DNA of 64,000 nucleotides from the NCBI RefSeq assembly GCF_000024465.1, contig NC_014010.1, positions 1,240,001 to 1,304,000 on the forward strand. The letters are read 5' to 3'. Source of the stretch: Candidatus Puniceispirillum marinum IMCC1322. Lineage in GTDB: Bacteria > Pseudomonadota > Alphaproteobacteria > Puniceispirillales > Puniceispirillaceae. Positions 22,130 to 30,039 of the stretch are shown here, piece by piece (the stretch's first letter is position 1; the number at the start of each line of letters is the position of its first letter). Under the pieces are notes generated by a model. The model was not told where the DNA came from. It made no database searches and saw only the letters and a list, made by a program, of their open reading frames with translations. A program made the position numbers and the translations under genes.

Positions 22130-22741
22130 CTATTTTTCAGCAATGGCCAACCTAGCACCAAGCGCCACAAAAGTGCTGGCAAATACATAACGGACCAACC
22201 TCATAATCCGAGGTTGAGACGTCATGTGATCGCGAACTGACGATGCAAAAACACCATAGCCAACAAAAACCACAAAGGTCATTAACATGAATACTATACT
22301 CAACATCAGCATATGAAATATAGGGTATGGATCATCTGCCTGAATAAATTGTGGCAAAAAGGCCAAAAAGAAAATCGATAATTTGGGATTCAAAATATTA
22401 ATCAAAATTGCGTGAGTGATGATCTGTTTTCTAGTATGCCTCTGATCGTCACTATTAATATTTAAGGCACCTGTCTCGCGAAAGGTCATCCATGCCATAT
22501 ATAACAGGTAAACGACGCCAATAAATTTGAAGGCATTAAAAATAACCGCACTAGTATGTAGAATTGCGGCTAATCCAAAAATGGCGGCTAAAAGATGTGG
22601 GACAATACCTAGAGTGCATCCAAAGGCCGCTAAAACACTTGGCTTTGTTCCACGTGCAATACCTGTTGCAATCGTATAAATTACACCTGTGCCGGGTGCT
22701 AAAACGATGATTAGGGATGTTAGAATAAACTCTAAGCTCAT
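22130..22741 (-). CDS. LysE/RhtB-family amino-acid exporter
   Basis: 203-residue inner-membrane exporter with about six hydrophobic segments. The N-terminal motif LIIVLAPGTGVIYTIATGIARG and the GCTLGIVPHLLAAIFGLAA region are typical of RhtB/LysE proteins. The middle contains YLLYMAWMTFRE and LNPKLSIFFLAFLPQFI, both conserved. It is last in the minus-strand methylated-amine gene run, 46 bp after the MttB-like gene, with AGGGG ahead of its ATG. It may export an amino acid produced by demethylation, or the reaction product that becomes toxic; specificity is unknown. Confidence 0.85.
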   Translation of the reverse strand: MSLEFILTSLIIVLAPGTGVIYTIATGIARGTKPSVLAAFGCTLGIVPHLLAAIFGLAAILHTSAVIFNAFKFIGVVYLLYMAWMTFRETGALNINSDDQRHTRKQIITHAILINILNPKLSIFFLAFLPQFIQADDPYPIFHMLMLSIVFMLMTFVVFVGYGVFASSVRDHMTSQPRIMRLVRYVFASTFVALGARLAIAEK

Positions 22742-22787: not shown

Positions 22788-24335
22788 CTATAACAATACA
22801 TTAAAATTGCTACGGATTTTGGCATCAAGCGCGTCTGGAATATGCGTCGGGTTAAAGCTGGCAAGTATTTCATCTTTGCGCTGGCTTGCTACTTCGACAA
22901 GGTTTGGCTTGCCAAGCTCTTCCCATTCCTTTGGACTCGACCGATCACCTATTGCTGGATAGACATATTCGGTCTGCATCAGCCCTATCGTCTGATCATG
23001 TCCCAGATAGTGCCCTGCGCCGCCCATACAGACATCTTTCATCACCGCAACGCCCAACGTCGCTTCATTGACTTCGACACCGCGCACACAGCGCAAACAT
23101 TGCCCGATCATGTCATTATCGATGATCAGACTTTCCAGACAAAAGCCAAGTAATGACGCATGCATGCCTGCCGCTTCATAAACCATATTCAGCCCTGATA
23201 GGCCTGCCATGACCAATGTGCTGCCTTTTTCATAGCCTGATTGTGCATCAGGCATTTTAGCGTCAGCCATGCCCGATGCAGCGCCACCAGGCAGATCGAA
23301 ATGCTGAAGCATCTGCGAACAGGCAGCGGTCAAAAGCCCTTGTTCGCCTGATCCTCCCGACATCGCACCCGTGCGCAAGTCAGACACAAATGGCCAGGTG
23401 CCAACGATACAGGGATGCCCCGGCACCATCGCATTGACATAGACCAAACCCGCAATCACTTCGGCAAGTGCTTGAGCCACAGCACCTGCTATGCTGGCGG
23501 GGGCTGTCGCACCGGCCTGGCCTGCCGATAACAGCAATACCGGCATACCTGCATGAACCGCTTCTTCCATCACCAGACAGGACTCGGTCGCAAACCGCAA
23601 AGGCGGCACGACAAAACAGTTACTGTTAGACACAAACGGCCGTGCACGCCATTTATCTTCGCCGCCTGCAACCATATGCAGCATATCAATTGCCGGCTTC
23701 ATGAACGGCGCTTCGGTAAAGCTACAGCCAACATGCTTGGTGGTGCCCTTAATCGCCGCATAGACCGTATTAAAATCCAGATCAGCCGGATCGGGGATAT
23801 CGCGTGCCACCATCGGACGCTGAAAGAAATGAATATTATCCATTTGCTCGACTATACGCGCCGCGTCATAGATATCGGCTAGATACGACTCTCGATAGCA
23901 ATTATTCTGCACATCAACGACATGAACAGCGGCACCAGCAGTACCAAAATGCACGCGTGATCCCGATAACAGCATGTCATGCTTTTCATCCTGTCCATGG
24001 ATCGTGATATGGCGGGCGGCTTTGGCAAGCGTATCTTCGACAAGCGCCCGCGGAAAGCGGATACGACCATCGTCGCCTTCTATAGCCCCTGCATCTGTCA
24101 TATATTTCACACCACTTTCAGGTGCCTGACTCAGACCGATTTCATCAAGTATCTGATAAACAGTGTCTTCAATTGCTTTAACTGAGGCATCGTTTAAGGG
24201 TTTGAAGGTGCCCCCAGACAGGCCCGGGCGAACTGGGCGTAATTCGTCTGCCAGCGGTGCGGCTCGAACCGAGCGTCGTGCCTCACGACCGCCGCTTCGG
24301 CGATTTGAATGTGGAATAAGTCTATTCTGCCGCAT
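22788..24335 (-). CDS. MttB-family (trimethylamine methyltransferase-like) protein without pyrrolysine
   Basis: 515-residue TIM-barrel methyltransferase of the MttB superfamily. Seen: GGTFKPLNDASVKAIEDTVY at the N-terminus, VHFGTAGAAVHVVDV, the central LLSAGQAGATAPASIAGAVA, GAMSGGSGEQGLLTAACSQM and the C-terminal FNPTHIPDALDAKI. No in-frame amber codon interrupts it, so it belongs to the non-pyrrolysine branch, whose known members demethylate quaternary amines such as glycine betaine or proline betaine. These normally transfer the methyl group to a corrinoid protein; none is encoded here. The ATG at 24335 is chosen over 24371 because AGGAAG precedes it. Downstream of two demethylating dehydrogenases in one operon. 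Confidence 0.88.
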   Translation of the reverse strand: MRQNRLIPHSNRRSGGREARRSVRAAPLADELRPVRPGLSGGTFKPLNDASVKAIEDTVYQILDEIGLSQAPESGVKYMTDAGAIEGDDGRIRFPRALVEDTLAKAARHITIHGQDEKHDMLLSGSRVHFGTAGAAVHVVDVQNNCYRESYLADIYDAARIVEQMDNIHFFQRPMVARDIPDPADLDFNTVYAAIKGTTKHVGCSFTEAPFMKPAIDMLHMVAGGEDKWRARPFVSNSNCFVVPPLRFATESCLVMEEAVHAGMPVLLLSAGQAGATAPASIAGAVAQALAEVIAGLVYVNAMVPGHPCIVGTWPFVSDLRTGAMSGGSGEQGLLTAACSQMLQHFDLPGGAASGMADAKMPDAQSGYEKGSTLVMAGLSGLNMVYEAAGMHASLLGFCLESLIIDNDMIGQCLRCVRGVEVNEATLGVAVMKDVCMGGAGHYLGHDQTIGLMQTEYVYPAIGDRSSPKEWEELGKPNLVEVASQRKDEILASFNPTHIPDALDAKIRSNFNVLL

Positions 24336-24371
24336 CGATTCTTCCTTTCTGTCTGTCTGAATGTCTTTCAA

Positions 24372-26843
24372 CTATAAGCGTACCTGTTCAGCTTTCGGGT
24401 CATACATCGGTTTAAAGCTGACATCGGCGTCGACCATCTGGCCAGCAACATCGATTTGATAATGTGATTGCAACTGGGATTCAGCCGTTTCGCCAGCCTT
24501 GGCGCAGCCGACATATCCAAGGCCAATCGCCCCGCCAAGATGATGCCCGTAATTTCCGCTGGTCAAAAAGCCAACAATCTCGCCATCGCGCAAAATGGCT
24601 TCATTATGATATAAAAGCGGGTCTGGATCTTTCAGACGGAATTGCATCAATCGCTGATCCAGCCCGTCATTCCGTTTTGCCTTCACCGCATCAGCCCCAA
24701 TCATGCCGCCAAATTTTGATGCTGGCTTGGTTTCCTTAACAGCAAAGCCGAGTCCTGCTTCAAGCACATGATCCTCATTCGAAATATCATGCCCAAAATG
24801 CCGGAATGCCTTTTCTATCCGGCAACTATCCAGCGCATGCAGACCACATAGCTGTAATGGATGATCTTGGGCGCGTGCCATGATTGTATCAAACACATGA
24901 TTCGACATATCCGCCGACACATATATCTCCCAGCCAAGCTCGCCTACATAGGTCACGCGATGCGCGCGGGCAATGCCATGTCCAATCTCAATATCCTGCA
25001 TCGTGCCAAAGGCAAAATCGTCATTCGCCAGACTTTGCGGAATCAATGGTTGCAGAAAATCACGCGCTTGGGGTCCCATGACAACAAGGACAGATTCAGA
25101 AACCGTCACATCAATTGCAATCGCATGCGCAGTATCGGGGATATGTCCGTTAATCCAATGCAGATCACGCCGCACTGTTGCCGCTGGCGTTACAATCAGA
25201 AATTCATCCGATGAAAGTCGGGTAATCGTAACATCAGCCTCTATATGGCCAGCTTCATTGAGAAATTGTGTATAGACAATCTTACCTGGGGCGACCGCTA
25301 CATCATTGGCCGCAATAGTCTGTAAAACTGCTTCGGCATCCTTGCCAATGATTTTGATTTTGCCAAAGCTCGACATATCAAACATGCCAACTTTTTCCCG
25401 AACAGCCTTATGCTCGCTGGCACTAAAGTCAAACCAGTTTTGCCGCTTCCAGCTATATTCATAAGCTGGCACTGTACCTTTAGCAATTTCCGATGATGGC
25501 AAGAACCAATTGGCGCGTTCCCATCCACTTGTTTCACCAAAACAAGCACCTGCCACCTTCAGACGGTCATGAACAGGTGATTGCCGGACATCGCGGGCAC
25601 TTTCAACCTGCCGATAGGGAAAATGGTCGGCATATAACAGGCCAAGCGTTTCCGAAACCCGGGTTTTGAGATAGCTACGGTTCGCCTGAAACGGCATCAT
25701 CCGGCGGATATCAACATCCCACAAATCCATCGGGGCATTGCCTGTATCCATCCATTCAGCCAGTGCCATACCGGCACCACCGGCGGACTGGATACCCACC
25801 GAATTAAATCCCGCCGCAACAAAGAAATTCTCTAATTCGGGAGCTTCGCCCAGAATATAGCGATCATCTGGGGTAAAGCTTTCTGGCCCATTGAAAAAGG
25901 TCTGGATACCTGCCGTGGCCAGCGCTGGCAACCGTTCTACAGCCCGTTCGAGAATAGGTTCGAAATGGTCAAAATCTTCGGGCAATGAGTCAAATTCAAA
26001 ATCCTCAGGGATGCCATTCATACCCCATGGTTTCGAATTTGGTTCAAAAGCACCAAGCAACATCTTGCCAGCGTCTTCCTTATAATAGGCGCATTCGTCT
26101 GGCACCCGCAGAACTGGCAGATTCGGCGTTAGCCCTTCAATCGCCTCGGTCACAATATAAAAATGTTCACACGCATGAAGTGGCACAGCAACGCCTGCCA
26201 TTGCGCCGATTTCGCGCGCCCACATGCCACCTGCATTAACCACATAATCAGCCGTGATAGGCCCTTCATTCGTCATCACGCCAGTCACACGTCCGTCAGC
26301 TTGGTCAATCGCGGTTACCTTGACACCCTGAATGATCTTGACGCCAAAATTACGCGCACCTTTGGCCAGTGCTTGTGTAATATTCACCGGATCGGCTTGC
26401 CCATCCTTTGGCAACCATACGCCTCCAACAACATTATCCAGCGAAAGCCCCGGATAGCGTTTAGTGACATCATCGGGCAAAATCTCATCAACCTCGACAC
26501 CAAAGGCACGCGCCATGGCCGCCGAACGTCGCAACTCTTCCATTCGCTCATCGGTCAGCGCAACCGTGATTGATCCATTCCGCTTAAAGCCGGTAGCAAC
26601 GCCGGTTTCCTGTTCCAGATCAAAATAAAGTTCCTGCGAATATTTCGCCAGGCGGGTCATATTCTGGGTCGCGCGAAGCTGGGCGATCAGACCTGCAGCA
26701 TGCCATGTTGTTCCACAGGTAAGCTGTTTGCGTTCAAGCAAAACCACATCCTTCCAGCCAAGCTTGCCAAGGTGATAGGCAATCGAACAACCGATGACAC
26801 CGCCACCAATGATGACAGCGCGTGCATGTGACGGAATAGCCAT
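24372..26843 (-). CDS. Dimethylglycine/sarcosine dehydrogenase-like FAD-GcvT protein, copy 1
   Basis: Two-part demethylating enzyme of 823 residues. N-terminal DAO-type FAD domain (about 1-380) with IIGGGVIGCSIAYHLGKLGW and TTWHAAGLIAQ, whose His is the covalent FAD attachment site in dimethylglycine dehydrogenases. A short linking domain follows, then a GcvT-like tetrahydrofolate domain (about 440-815) with GMFDMSSFGKIKIIG and YVGELGWEIYVSADM. The FAD part oxidises an N-methyl group and the GcvT part passes the carbon to THF. Dimethylglycine, sarcosine and other N-methyl amino acids are possible substrates. It starts 2 bp after the previous gene's stop, with AAAGG ahead. Confidence 0.88.
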   Translation of the reverse strand: MAIPSHARAVIIGGGVIGCSIAYHLGKLGWKDVVLLERKQLTCGTTWHAAGLIAQLRATQNMTRLAKYSQELYFDLEQETGVATGFKRNGSITVALTDERMEELRRSAAMARAFGVEVDEILPDDVTKRYPGLSLDNVVGGVWLPKDGQADPVNITQALAKGARNFGVKIIQGVKVTAIDQADGRVTGVMTNEGPITADYVVNAGGMWAREIGAMAGVAVPLHACEHFYIVTEAIEGLTPNLPVLRVPDECAYYKEDAGKMLLGAFEPNSKPWGMNGIPEDFEFDSLPEDFDHFEPILERAVERLPALATAGIQTFFNGPESFTPDDRYILGEAPELENFFVAAGFNSVGIQSAGGAGMALAEWMDTGNAPMDLWDVDIRRMMPFQANRSYLKTRVSETLGLLYADHFPYRQVESARDVRQSPVHDRLKVAGACFGETSGWERANWFLPSSEIAKGTVPAYEYSWKRQNWFDFSASEHKAVREKVGMFDMSSFGKIKIIGKDAEAVLQTIAANDVAVAPGKIVYTQFLNEAGHIEADVTITRLSSDEFLIVTPAATVRRDLHWINGHIPDTAHAIAIDVTVSESVLVVMGPQARDFLQPLIPQSLANDDFAFGTMQDIEIGHGIARAHRVTYVGELGWEIYVSADMSNHVFDTIMARAQDHPLQLCGLHALDSCRIEKAFRHFGHDISNEDHVLEAGLGFAVKETKPASKFGGMIGADAVKAKRNDGLDQRLMQFRLKDPDPLLYHNEAILRDGEIVGFLTSGNYGHHLGGAIGLGYVGCAKAGETAESQLQSHYQIDVAGQMVDADVSFKPMYDPKAEQVRL

Positions 26844-26845
26844 GA

Positions 26846-29338
26846 TTACACCTTTAACTTTGCATTTGTCGGGTCATACAGAACATTGCCTTCAACAATA
26901 TGCGCATCGCGTATCCGGCCAAGCACATCAACTGCCAGATTTGCCCCCTCAACCAGCGCGTCTGCATCAATCACCGCCATGGCTATCGATGCCCCTACCC
27001 GATGTCCATAGCCTGCCGATACGACCAGACCGGCAGCCACATCATTGACCAGAACCGTGCTTAGATAGACAGCCTCACCAAAGGGCTCACCATCAGCCGG
27101 ATCATCAATCGTCAAAGTTACAAAGCGGCGTTTTGTACCTGCCTGATGCTCGGCCATCAAAGCTGTCTTGCCGGTAAAATCGTCCTTACCAAAATTCACC
27201 CAGCGTTCGAGACCGCTTTCCAGCATTGTATAATCCGAAGTCAGATCCGATTTCCATGACCTATAGCCTTTTTCAAGCCGCATCGAGTCGAGTGCCAACA
27301 TACCGAAATGTCCAAGTTGATGCGCATCACCCTGTGCAATAATGGCGTCATAGACGCTAACAACATCCTGCATCGGACAATGTAGTTCCCATCCAGCTTC
27401 ACCGGCAAAGGAGACACGAATGGCCGTTGTATCAACGCCTGCTATTTTTACCCGCTGATGTGTCAGCCACGGAAATGCACCTGACGCCACATCAATATCA
27501 ACCACATCAGCAAGCAAAGCAGGTGCCTTTGGTCCAGTGACAAGCAAGGTGGCAAAATCGCGCGTTATGTCGCTGATAGAAATCGCTCCCCCTGCTGGCA
27601 AGGCAAAGAACAGCAGATCGAAATCATGCCAGTACGCGCCAGCACCTGTCATCAACATAAATTCATCTTCACCAAGACAGGTCGCGGTCATTTCGCTAAG
27701 CACGCGCCCCTTTGGCGAGGCAAAATAAATCAGGCCAATCCGCCCGGGCTTTGGCAGATTGCCAGTAACCAGCGATGATAGCCAACTGCGGGTACCTTCA
27801 CCCTTTACCAGATAACGCGAAAAGCCAGTCATTTCGAGAATGCCTGCATGTTCTGCAACATGGCGGCATTCGGCACCAACCGTATCGAACCAGCCTTGAC
27901 GGTCATAGCTATCTGCAGGACGCCTCTCATCGCCTGCCTTGGGGAACCAGTCGGCGCGTTCCCAGCCACCATAGGCGCCAAATTCGGCACCCGCAGCTTC
28001 GAGCCGTTCATAAAGCGGACTCACCTTTGCCTTACGGCCAGCTGGCCACTGAATTTGTGGAAAATGCATGGCATATTCATGACTATAGGTTTCAATGGCC
28101 TTAGCCGCCGTATAAGCCGTATCGACATGGTCGGTAAAGCGGCGGGGGTCAACCGCCCAACTATCGGTTTCGGCTTCGCCTTCGACAATAATATCTGCCA
28201 GTAATTTACCCGCGCCACCGCCCTGCACAATACCAAAGGTAAACACACAGGCTTCAAAGGCGTTGGGCACGCCCGGCATCTGGCCAATAAGCGGCAAACC
28301 GTCAGGCGTATAGGGAATCGGGCCATTGACCACGCGGGTGATCCCACCACTGCCCAGAATAGGCACACGCTCACAGGCATCCTCAATATACCATTCCAGC
28401 CGGTCAAGGTCGTCATTATATAGCTGGAAAGAGAAATCATCAGGCATCGGATCATCGTCGGTCAGCCAATGGGCACGGCAATTTTTTTCATATGGCCCAA
28501 GCAATAATCCGTCTTTTTCCTGGCGCAGATAATACGAGCTGTCTGGATCGCGTAGCAATGGTAACTTGCTGTCGCGTGCGGTCAGTTCGGGAATAGCTTC
28601 GGTAATCAGATATTGATGCGCCAGTGATACACAGGGCACATCTCGGCCAAACATCTTGCCAAGTTCATTGGCACGGTAACCAGCTGCATTGACAACAAAT
28701 TCAGCCTGAATATCACCTTGCGACGTCGAAATCGTCCATTCACCCTTGTCCCATTTGACACCGGTTACTGGACAGAAACGAATGATGGTCGCACCAAGAT
28801 CACGCGCACCCTTGGCCAATGCCTGCGTTAATTGCGCTGGATCAATATCGCCATCATAGGGATCCCACTGGCCACCATATAGGTCATGCGTTTCAAGAAA
28901 CGGATAGACATCCTGCATGTCCTTATTCGACATTTCCTGCAATTCGACACCCATCTGCCGGCCCATACGCTCAACATGGCGAAACTCCTCCATACGCTGA
29001 CGACTATGGGCAAGGCGTATCGCACCTGTCACATGATAATTCATAGGATAATCAACCAACGCGCCAAGCTCGCGATATAGGCGCGTCGAATAGGACTGGA
29101 TCTTCATCATTGTCCATGACCCGACAAAGTTCGGGCAATTGCCAGCCGCGTGCCAAGTGGATCCCGAAGTCAGCTCGTTTTTTTCGAGCAGAACAACATC
29201 TGTCCAACCCAATTTAGCAAGATGATACAGTACAGATGTACCAACTGCTCCACCACCAATCACGACAACACGGGCACTTTTTGGCAATGGTGTTGTGGAT
29301 TGCAGGGTCTCAGTCTGTTTTGTTTGCTGTTCGTTCAT
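26846..29338 (-). CDS. Dimethylglycine/sarcosine dehydrogenase-like FAD-GcvT protein, copy 2
   Basis: 830-residue paralogue of the preceding type with the same plan: FAD domain with VVIGGGAVGTSVLYHLAKLG at about 25-44, SGSTWHAAGNCPNFV carrying the putative FAD-linking histidine, then a linking domain and a GcvT half with ILEMTGFSRYLVKGEG and FAGEAGWELHCP. It differs from copy 1 around the active site (NCPNFVGSWTMM versus LIAQLRATQNMT), so the two likely act on successive substrates, for example dimethylglycine then sarcosine. It starts 38 bp after the regulator gene; the ribosome site is weak. Confidence 0.88.
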   Translation of the reverse strand: MNEQQTKQTETLQSTTPLPKSARVVVIGGGAVGTSVLYHLAKLGWTDVVLLEKNELTSGSTWHAAGNCPNFVGSWTMMKIQSYSTRLYRELGALVDYPMNYHVTGAIRLAHSRQRMEEFRHVERMGRQMGVELQEMSNKDMQDVYPFLETHDLYGGQWDPYDGDIDPAQLTQALAKGARDLGATIIRFCPVTGVKWDKGEWTISTSQGDIQAEFVVNAAGYRANELGKMFGRDVPCVSLAHQYLITEAIPELTARDSKLPLLRDPDSSYYLRQEKDGLLLGPYEKNCRAHWLTDDDPMPDDFSFQLYNDDLDRLEWYIEDACERVPILGSGGITRVVNGPIPYTPDGLPLIGQMPGVPNAFEACVFTFGIVQGGGAGKLLADIIVEGEAETDSWAVDPRRFTDHVDTAYTAAKAIETYSHEYAMHFPQIQWPAGRKAKVSPLYERLEAAGAEFGAYGGWERADWFPKAGDERRPADSYDRQGWFDTVGAECRHVAEHAGILEMTGFSRYLVKGEGTRSWLSSLVTGNLPKPGRIGLIYFASPKGRVLSEMTATCLGEDEFMLMTGAGAYWHDFDLLFFALPAGGAISISDITRDFATLLVTGPKAPALLADVVDIDVASGAFPWLTHQRVKIAGVDTTAIRVSFAGEAGWELHCPMQDVVSVYDAIIAQGDAHQLGHFGMLALDSMRLEKGYRSWKSDLTSDYTMLESGLERWVNFGKDDFTGKTALMAEHQAGTKRRFVTLTIDDPADGEPFGEAVYLSTVLVNDVAAGLVVSAGYGHRVGASIAMAVIDADALVEGANLAVDVLGRIRDAHIVEGNVLYDPTNAKLKV

Positions 29339-29376: not shown

Positions 29377-30003
29377 CTAATAAATTGGTGGGGCGATCAC
29401 CCAGATCAGGATGGCTGGCACAGTGCCTTCATTCACCCATGACACGGTTTCGCCAGCAAACCGGAAGCTGTCACCAGCCCGCAACTCAAAACGGTCACCA
29501 TCAATAAACAACACAAGGCTACCTTCAATAACATAGCCTGCTTCTTCGCTTTGCCTGACAAACGGTTCCGGGCAGCGAGCGCCTGGGGCAAATACCGAAT
29601 GGACAATCTCAAACGCACCGCCCAGATCAGGCGATAACAGGCTTTCAACCAGACCTTTGGTATCGTCACTCATCGACCGGCGCGAATCTCCACGCACGAC
29701 AAATTGGCTTTCCGGATCATCGCTACTTGATGAAAAAAAGAAACTGACGGGCAGATTAAACAAGCCGGCAATACGGCGGATATCTTCTAATGCGGGTTCT
29801 GACACGCCGCGTTCAACCTGTGACAGCCAGCCAACCGAGCGTTCAAGATGATCGGCAAGATCGCTTAGCGTCCAGTTACGTGATCGGCGCAAGGCGCGAA
29901 TGTCACTGCCGATCTGCCCTGTTGAACGCAGTGGCGCACTGGCACTGGCACTCGAACTGGCACTCGAACTGGCATTTGGTTGTTTTTCCATCTTCACAAG
30001 CAT
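29377..30003 (-). CDS. XRE-family regulator with C-terminal cupin
   Basis: About 208 residues: a Ser/Ala-rich N-terminal tail of repeated ASSS units, an XRE helix-turn-helix (IRALRRSRNWTLSDLADHLE and WLSQVERG) and a cupin domain (PEPFVRQSEEAGYVIEGSLV, FRFAGETVSWVNEG) that probably senses the substrate. Start choice is uncertain: the ATG at 30003 has GAGAG 8 nt upstream, while ATGs at 30030 and 29991 are also possible. It is the first gene of the methylated-amine operon on the minus strand, so it most likely controls it and itself. Inverted TTTTCAT/ATGAAAA sequences lie upstream. Confidence 0.87.
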   Translation of the reverse strand: MLVKMEKQPNASSSASSSASASAPLRSTGQIGSDIRALRRSRNWTLSDLADHLERSVGWLSQVERGVSEPALEDIRRIAGLFNLPVSFFFSSSSDDPESQFVVRGDSRRSMSDDTKGLVESLLSPDLGGAFEIVHSVFAPGARCPEPFVRQSEEAGYVIEGSLVLFIDGDRFELRAGDSFRFAGETVSWVNEGTVPAILIWVIAPPIY

Positions 30004-30039
30004 CTGAAACACTCTCTTTCCCCCTAACATTGCGAGGAG

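Follow-up and report, generated by a model that had tools for sequence, protein, structure and literature searches.

Genes for MttB proteins without pyrrolysine are frequent in marine alphaproteobacteria, and for the majority of them no substrate is known. One such gene lies on the minus strand at positions 22788-24335 of the window, i.e. the whole 64-kb stretch of DNA analysed here, which spans C1:1240001-1304000 of a single-contig genome of 2,753,527 bases. It raises two related questions, namely to which acceptor the encoded enzyme passes its methyl group when no corrinoid-protein gene is close by, and from which compound this group is taken.

Family, fold and active-site residues

The 515-aa product of this gene is a member of the MttB superfamily, as judged from both a full-length family match and an MttB-type fold. 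In a profile search it matched model positions 1-489 of 500 of PF06253 with 369.6 bits (2e-110), being one of the seven PF06253 genes of the 2.75 Mb genome. The reading frame is intact and open over 515 codons from 24335 to 22788, and the ATG at 24335, which has an AGGAAG-like stretch about 8 bases upstream of it, is to be preferred as start over the TTG at 24371 further upstream. The first-pass annotation of this DNA had described a full-length frame devoid of internal amber codons, and this description stands. A pyrrolysine gene was accordingly rejected on the basis of the missing in-frame amber codon, of a score of 342.6 bits with the model of pyrrolysine trimethylamine methyltransferases (TIGR02369), which is below its cut-off of 525, and of the residue found at the pyrrolysine position. 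The alignment of this position, which the annotation had proposed as a check, placed Met356 of the window MttB opposite Pyl334 of the Methanosarcina MttB, the Desulfitobacterium MtgB chain having Leu at this site. In the same comparison Gly134 and Tyr386 corresponded to Gly110 and Tyr364 of the methanogen enzyme, which help to position pyrrolysine in MttB (PMC9842639).

A structure model derived from 16 orthologues (mean pLDDT 74.5) retrieved as top matches MttB alone and the MttB-MttC complex (7xcl/7xcn), MtgB (2qne/9yce) and the Sinorhizobium homologue 4yyc, with TM-scores of around 0.75 to 7xcl and 2qne. Sequence comparison with solved structures gave 182-183 bits for the anaerobic MttB and MtgB enzymes and 120 bits for 4yyc. 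The Methanosarcina barkeri MttB/MttC pair is the best structural match and has the equivalents of both conserved residues, the window protein departing from it in the replacement of pyrrolysine by Met and in that trimethylamine is not the expected substrate. Desulfitobacterium hafniense MtgB (182 bits by sequence) shares superfamily, fold and the lack of pyrrolysine with the window MttB, but the identity over the structural alignment is only about 26%, and MtgB works anaerobically with a corrinoid protein of its own on a substrate different from the one predicted here. The model is least confident in the N-terminal tail and in residues 418-476, the latter being the approximate counterpart of the C-terminal dimerisation loop, with which MttC is in contact in the complex. 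The tail, comprising the first 30 residues, is basic, predicted to be disordered and marked by a RRxGGRxARRxxRAAPL pattern with many residues invariant within the branch; several paralogs have a degenerate form of it, and it may represent a docking or assembly element.

The methyl acceptor

No B12-binding domain was found anywhere in the 64-kb window, and a corrinoid gene hidden in or near it was therefore rejected as a candidate. The statement that such a gene is missing nearby was right for the window, but it does not extend to the genome, whose two B12-binding domain sites belong to a methylmalonyl-CoA mutase-type ORF and to a corrinoid protein encoded at C1:1162083-1162787, about 100 kb from mttB. 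This MtgC candidate, the one hit of the genome search for MtbC/MtgC-like proteins that the annotation had recommended, has 234 aa, B12-binding_2 and B12-binding domains and the sequence DIHDIG (DxHxxG motif), and it is the sole free-standing corrinoid protein of the genome. Its cluster also encodes DUF1638, two MTHFR-family proteins, a pterin-binding methyltransferase (mtgD) and a RACo/RamA activase, thereby supplying MtgC, MtgD and the cobalamin reactivation genes of the aerobic MtgBCD system.

This gene set has a counterpart in Ruegeria pomeroyi, where mutants lacking mtgC or mtgD neither synthesise methionine nor grow on glycine betaine (PMC12478193). The shared MtgBCD system was described in 2025 for aerobic marine bacteria, and the same report found mtgC in SAR116 and counted as many as seven PF06253 genes in a single genome (PMC12478193). 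The earlier view that non-pyrrolysine MttB enzymes are mostly confined to anaerobes is outdated by this genetic demonstration. R. pomeroyi, like the window organism, is an aerobic marine alphaproteobacterium with several PF06253 paralogs, MtgB1 and MtgB2 (SPO2108, SPO2134) among them. Its system likewise has a PF06253 methyltransferase that lacks a local corrinoid gene and draws on one shared MtgC and MtgD along with RamA and DUF1638 (PMC12478193). The window system differs from it in its operon with two FAD-GcvT enzymes and in its predicted specificity for trimethyltaurine.

The distribution of MtgC points in the same direction. Among 385 alphaproteobacterial genomes, and counting MtgC at 72% identity or more to the window-genome protein, it was detected in 74 of the 82 MttB-positive genomes and was absent from all 303 MttB-negative ones, these being raw counts that ignore kinship. 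The MttB-positive genomes that lack MtgC are mostly fragmented or incomplete; one of them (G176) is 93% complete, and a sister genome of the same genus (G272) has the gene. None of the 36 genomes checked carries the window branch as its sole MttB, so that for the window enzyme in particular the need for MtgC is an inference. Given the mtgC/mtgD cluster in the genome, this co-occurrence and the MttB-type fold, the acceptor is most likely MtgC, followed by THF, and we consider methyl transfer from the window MttB to MtgC very probable. Of the two options contemplated in the first-pass annotation, a distant corrinoid protein is supported by the mtgC/mtgD/DUF1638/RamA cluster and by the near-perfect co-occurrence, and a different kind of acceptor gained no positive support. 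The sharing of one MtgC would also explain why non-pyrrolysine MttB genes lack local corrinoid genes.

The operon and a proposed order of demethylations

The mttB gene is the last of a minus-strand operon that is headed by a XRE-cupin transcription regulator (29377-30030) and continues with two FAD-GcvT fusion dehydrogenases, FADb (26846-29338) and FADa (24372-26843), all of them separated by gaps of 2 to 38 bases. FADa shows DAO, FAO_M, GCV_T and GCV_T_C domains in Pfam and FADb shows DAO, FAO_M and GcvT domains; both are predicted N-demethylases delivering methylene-THF and, although only 35% identical to each other, both have mammalian dimethylglycine dehydrogenase as nearest solved structure (5l46/4pab, 452 bits for FADa; 5l46, 586 bits for FADb). 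Close to their N termini the two proteins share a conserved WHAAG motif (residues 47-51 in FADa), presumably the site of the histidine that binds FAD covalently. The regulator, with HTH and Cupin_2 domains, is PuuR-like, scoring 48.7 bits with NF007408, i.e. below the cut-off of 211, and it precedes FADb in 15 of 80 relatives' loci. At the other end a LysE-family exporter (22130-22741, minus strand; LysE 128 bits) lies 46 bp downstream of mttB; a weak LysE match occurs near mttB in only 1 of the 80 loci and the exporter is no conserved partner of this gene. Promoter and terminator scans did not yield sites above the number found in shuffled sequence.

The order of two FAD-GcvT genes followed by mttB is kept in loci of SAR116, Rhizobiaceae, Rhodobacteraceae and Rhodospirillales, and in a tree of 85 proteins FAD-linked loci extend across most of the branch, interspersed with standalone roseobacter and Mesorhizobium copies; the majority of the orthologues in these two groups stand alone. 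The linkage to FAD-GcvT genes noted at first is thus real and conserved, and the part of that proposal in which the FAD-GcvT proteins accept the methyl group gives way to a better reading, in which they perform later demethylations. A corrinoid-free reaction, with THF itself or the GcvT domain of an adjacent FAD enzyme taking the methyl directly from MttB, could be argued from the tight operon with two THF-binding GcvT fusions and from the absence of a local corrinoid gene. We regard it as very improbable, considering that MtgC occurs in nearly all MttB-positive genomes and in no MttB-negative one, that the fold and the residues aligned to the MttB active-site pocket are conserved, and that FAD-GcvT genes are missing from the neighbourhood of many orthologues. 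In three Rhizobiaceae loci (L089, L094, L104) a homocysteine S-methyltransferase gene (PF02574) separates FADb from FADa, and a gene of the PEP-mutase family separates FADa from mttB.

Attack by Co(I) requires a leaving group of a quality that only a quaternary nitrogen offers, and flavin oxidation suits secondary and tertiary amines. MttB would for the first of these reasons act at the beginning of the pathway, taking one methyl off an N,N,N-trimethyl compound and placing it on the cob(I)alamin of the single MtgC shared in the genome, from which MtgD would pass it to tetrahydrofolate, RamA and perhaps DUF1638 keeping the cobalamin reduced. Oxidative demethylation of the remaining tertiary and then secondary amine by FADa and FADb would yield methylene-THF. 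One MttB and two FAD-GcvT enzymes would thus account for three N-methyl groups, the stripping of which would release a primary amine. This order of demethylations is, in our estimate, probable.

Linkage to taurine genes and the likely substrate

Taurine is the apparent end product when the gene neighbourhoods of relatives are considered, and N,N,N-trimethyltaurine (taurobetaine) is for this reason our candidate substrate. In these loci the genes of the branch occur amid tauABC, xsc, pta, omega-aminotransferase and TauR-like genes in at least four arrangements, several of them independent. A single 16-kb stretch of Nitratireductor (L129) holds FADb, the genes of a TauCBA-like transporter, mttB, xsc (whose score of 1045 bits exceeds the curated cut-off), a regulator gene of MocR/TauR-like type, a pta-like gene and FADa. 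In G109, which belongs to the window's own family, one locus (L148) has mttB behind tauABC-like genes, and at another (L149) pta, xsc and the omega-aminotransferase gene aptA come after FADb-FADa. In G381, of the same order as the window genome, pta, a TauR-like gene and an omega-aminotransferase lie directly downstream of mttB (L150), and three further loci (L056, L059, L060) resemble it in having pta downstream of mttB together with a TauR-like gene, an aminotransferase or tauA. The remaining arrangement is that of L121, where tauABC-like genes adjoin FADa. In G117 an ordinary taurine cluster, tauABC-aminotransferase-xsc (L147), starts with the same type of TauA, and beside mttB of 13 Mesorhizobium-type loci there is a regulator that shares 46-48% identity with the TauR-like protein of L129. 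Xsc itself was found in 27 of 35 genomes with the branch, in 10 of 47 with other MttBs only and in 10 of 303 without MttB, kinship being ignored in these counts. The TauA-like proteins score 97-182 bits against a curated taurine cut-off of 304, and since they fall below it these transporters could carry a related sulfonate.

The window genome too has xsc, at C1:1518834, and tauABC-like genes, at C1:1594087, which is in keeping with a taurine route. Several findings weaken the assignment, however. Both of these loci are unlinked to the operon, and no taurine genes adjoin the operon in this genome. Most orthologues in roseobacters and Mesorhizobium, as noted above, stand alone. The taurine aminotransferase of L060 has no close ortholog in this genome (best match 33%), and neither xsc nor tauA was found within 15 kb of the Sinorhizobium/Shinella operons (L132, L151, L152).

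Two other substrates would be compatible with the same MtgC mechanism. Glycine betaine was considered first, on account of the dimethylglycine dehydrogenase-like FAD enzymes: MttB would produce dimethylglycine and the FAD-GcvT pair would act as dimethylglycine and sarcosine dehydrogenases, in keeping with the closest solved structures of FADa and FADb and with the highest scores of MttB being those against glycine betaine and trimethylamine methyltransferase structures. It was downgraded, and we now deem it unlikely, because a separate cluster of the window genome (L013:7268-16761), with a different MttB, a FAD-GcvT enzyme and soxBDAG-like genes, looks like a full route and is likely the one that converts glycine betaine to glycine, and because it is taurine genes, and no known glycine betaine gene, that recur around the branch. 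Somewhat less improbable, yet still doubtful, is another trimethylammonium compound such as beta-alanine betaine or gamma-butyrobetaine, whose product would go to an omega-aminotransferase, the taurine genes reflecting general co-regulation. The aminotransferase linked in SAR116 relatives is annotated as the omega-aminotransferase AptA (616-620 bits), and in S. meliloti Ak57 a gene for gamma-aminobutyraldehyde dehydrogenase is found at a distance of about 5 kb; against this, the gene of the sulfoacetaldehyde-specific Xsc is interspersed among the branch genes in L129 and lies directly past FADa and pta in L149.

With taurobetaine as substrate, trimethyltaurine would be converted via the dimethyl and methyl forms to taurine, which would enter the aminotransferase, Xsc and Pta route. 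Taurine dissimilation (TauABC, aminotransferase, Xsc, Pta) is known as a pathway whose genes flank the operon in several relatives, and MttB plus two FAD-GcvT enzymes placed upstream would extend it to N-methylated forms. We therefore propose that the gene encodes a quaternary-amine:corrinoid-protein Co-methyltransferase that relies on the shared MtgC and serves a taurobetaine pathway, an explanation to which, as a whole, we give a probability of about 0.65; the observations behind it (fold and family, operon, single corrinoid system, co-occurrence and taurine-gene linkage) are all sequence-based. Taken separately, the identity of the substrate, which relies on the neighbourhoods of relatives, stands at even odds, and it is with marginally more reserve that we suggest the operon to be the demethylation arm of such a pathway and this MttB-superfamily branch to be devoted to a sulfonate betaine. 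If true, this would be a taurobetaine degradation route linking vitamin B12, one-carbon metabolism and sulfonate sulfur. Taurobetaine is a marine sulfonate osmolyte for which high levels have been reported in Madracis corals (PMC5557254, drawing on previous studies). Literature searches on homarine, trimethyltaurine, taurobetaine and N-methyltaurine degradation retrieved nothing describing the operon and no bacterial breakdown of trimethyltaurine. The apparently new element is the substrate of the window branch, the shared MtgBCD system having been reported already.

The other MttB proteins of these genomes add some further observations. The nearest relatives (L050, L051), with 84-85% identity, are labelled as Candidatus Puniceispirillum, and the six paralogs of the window MttB in its genome share 39% (L018) or 22-24% (the other five) with it. 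A tandem pair of these paralogs adjoins peptide-type-like ABC transporter genes (L016:9754-12948) and another one adjoins an acetyl-CoA-synthetase-like gene (L017:9923-13390). A relative with 50% identity in a further genome (G185:C104:66220-67749) has an in-frame TAA. G381 encodes, directly beside xsc (L146:8561-11951), an MttB from the other main subfamily that is 64% identical to MttB16b of the window genome; this weakens the taurobetaine assignment of the window branch, and taurine-related compounds may be acted on by more than one MttB. Finally, a possible parallel pathway for another betaine is encoded on the R. pomeroyi megaplasmid (L133:11992-21312), where an MttB of the sister branch (45%) is accompanied by two FAD-GcvT enzymes, an aminotransferase resembling glutamate-semialdehyde aminomutase and an Xsc-like ThDP enzyme that scores below the Xsc cut-off.
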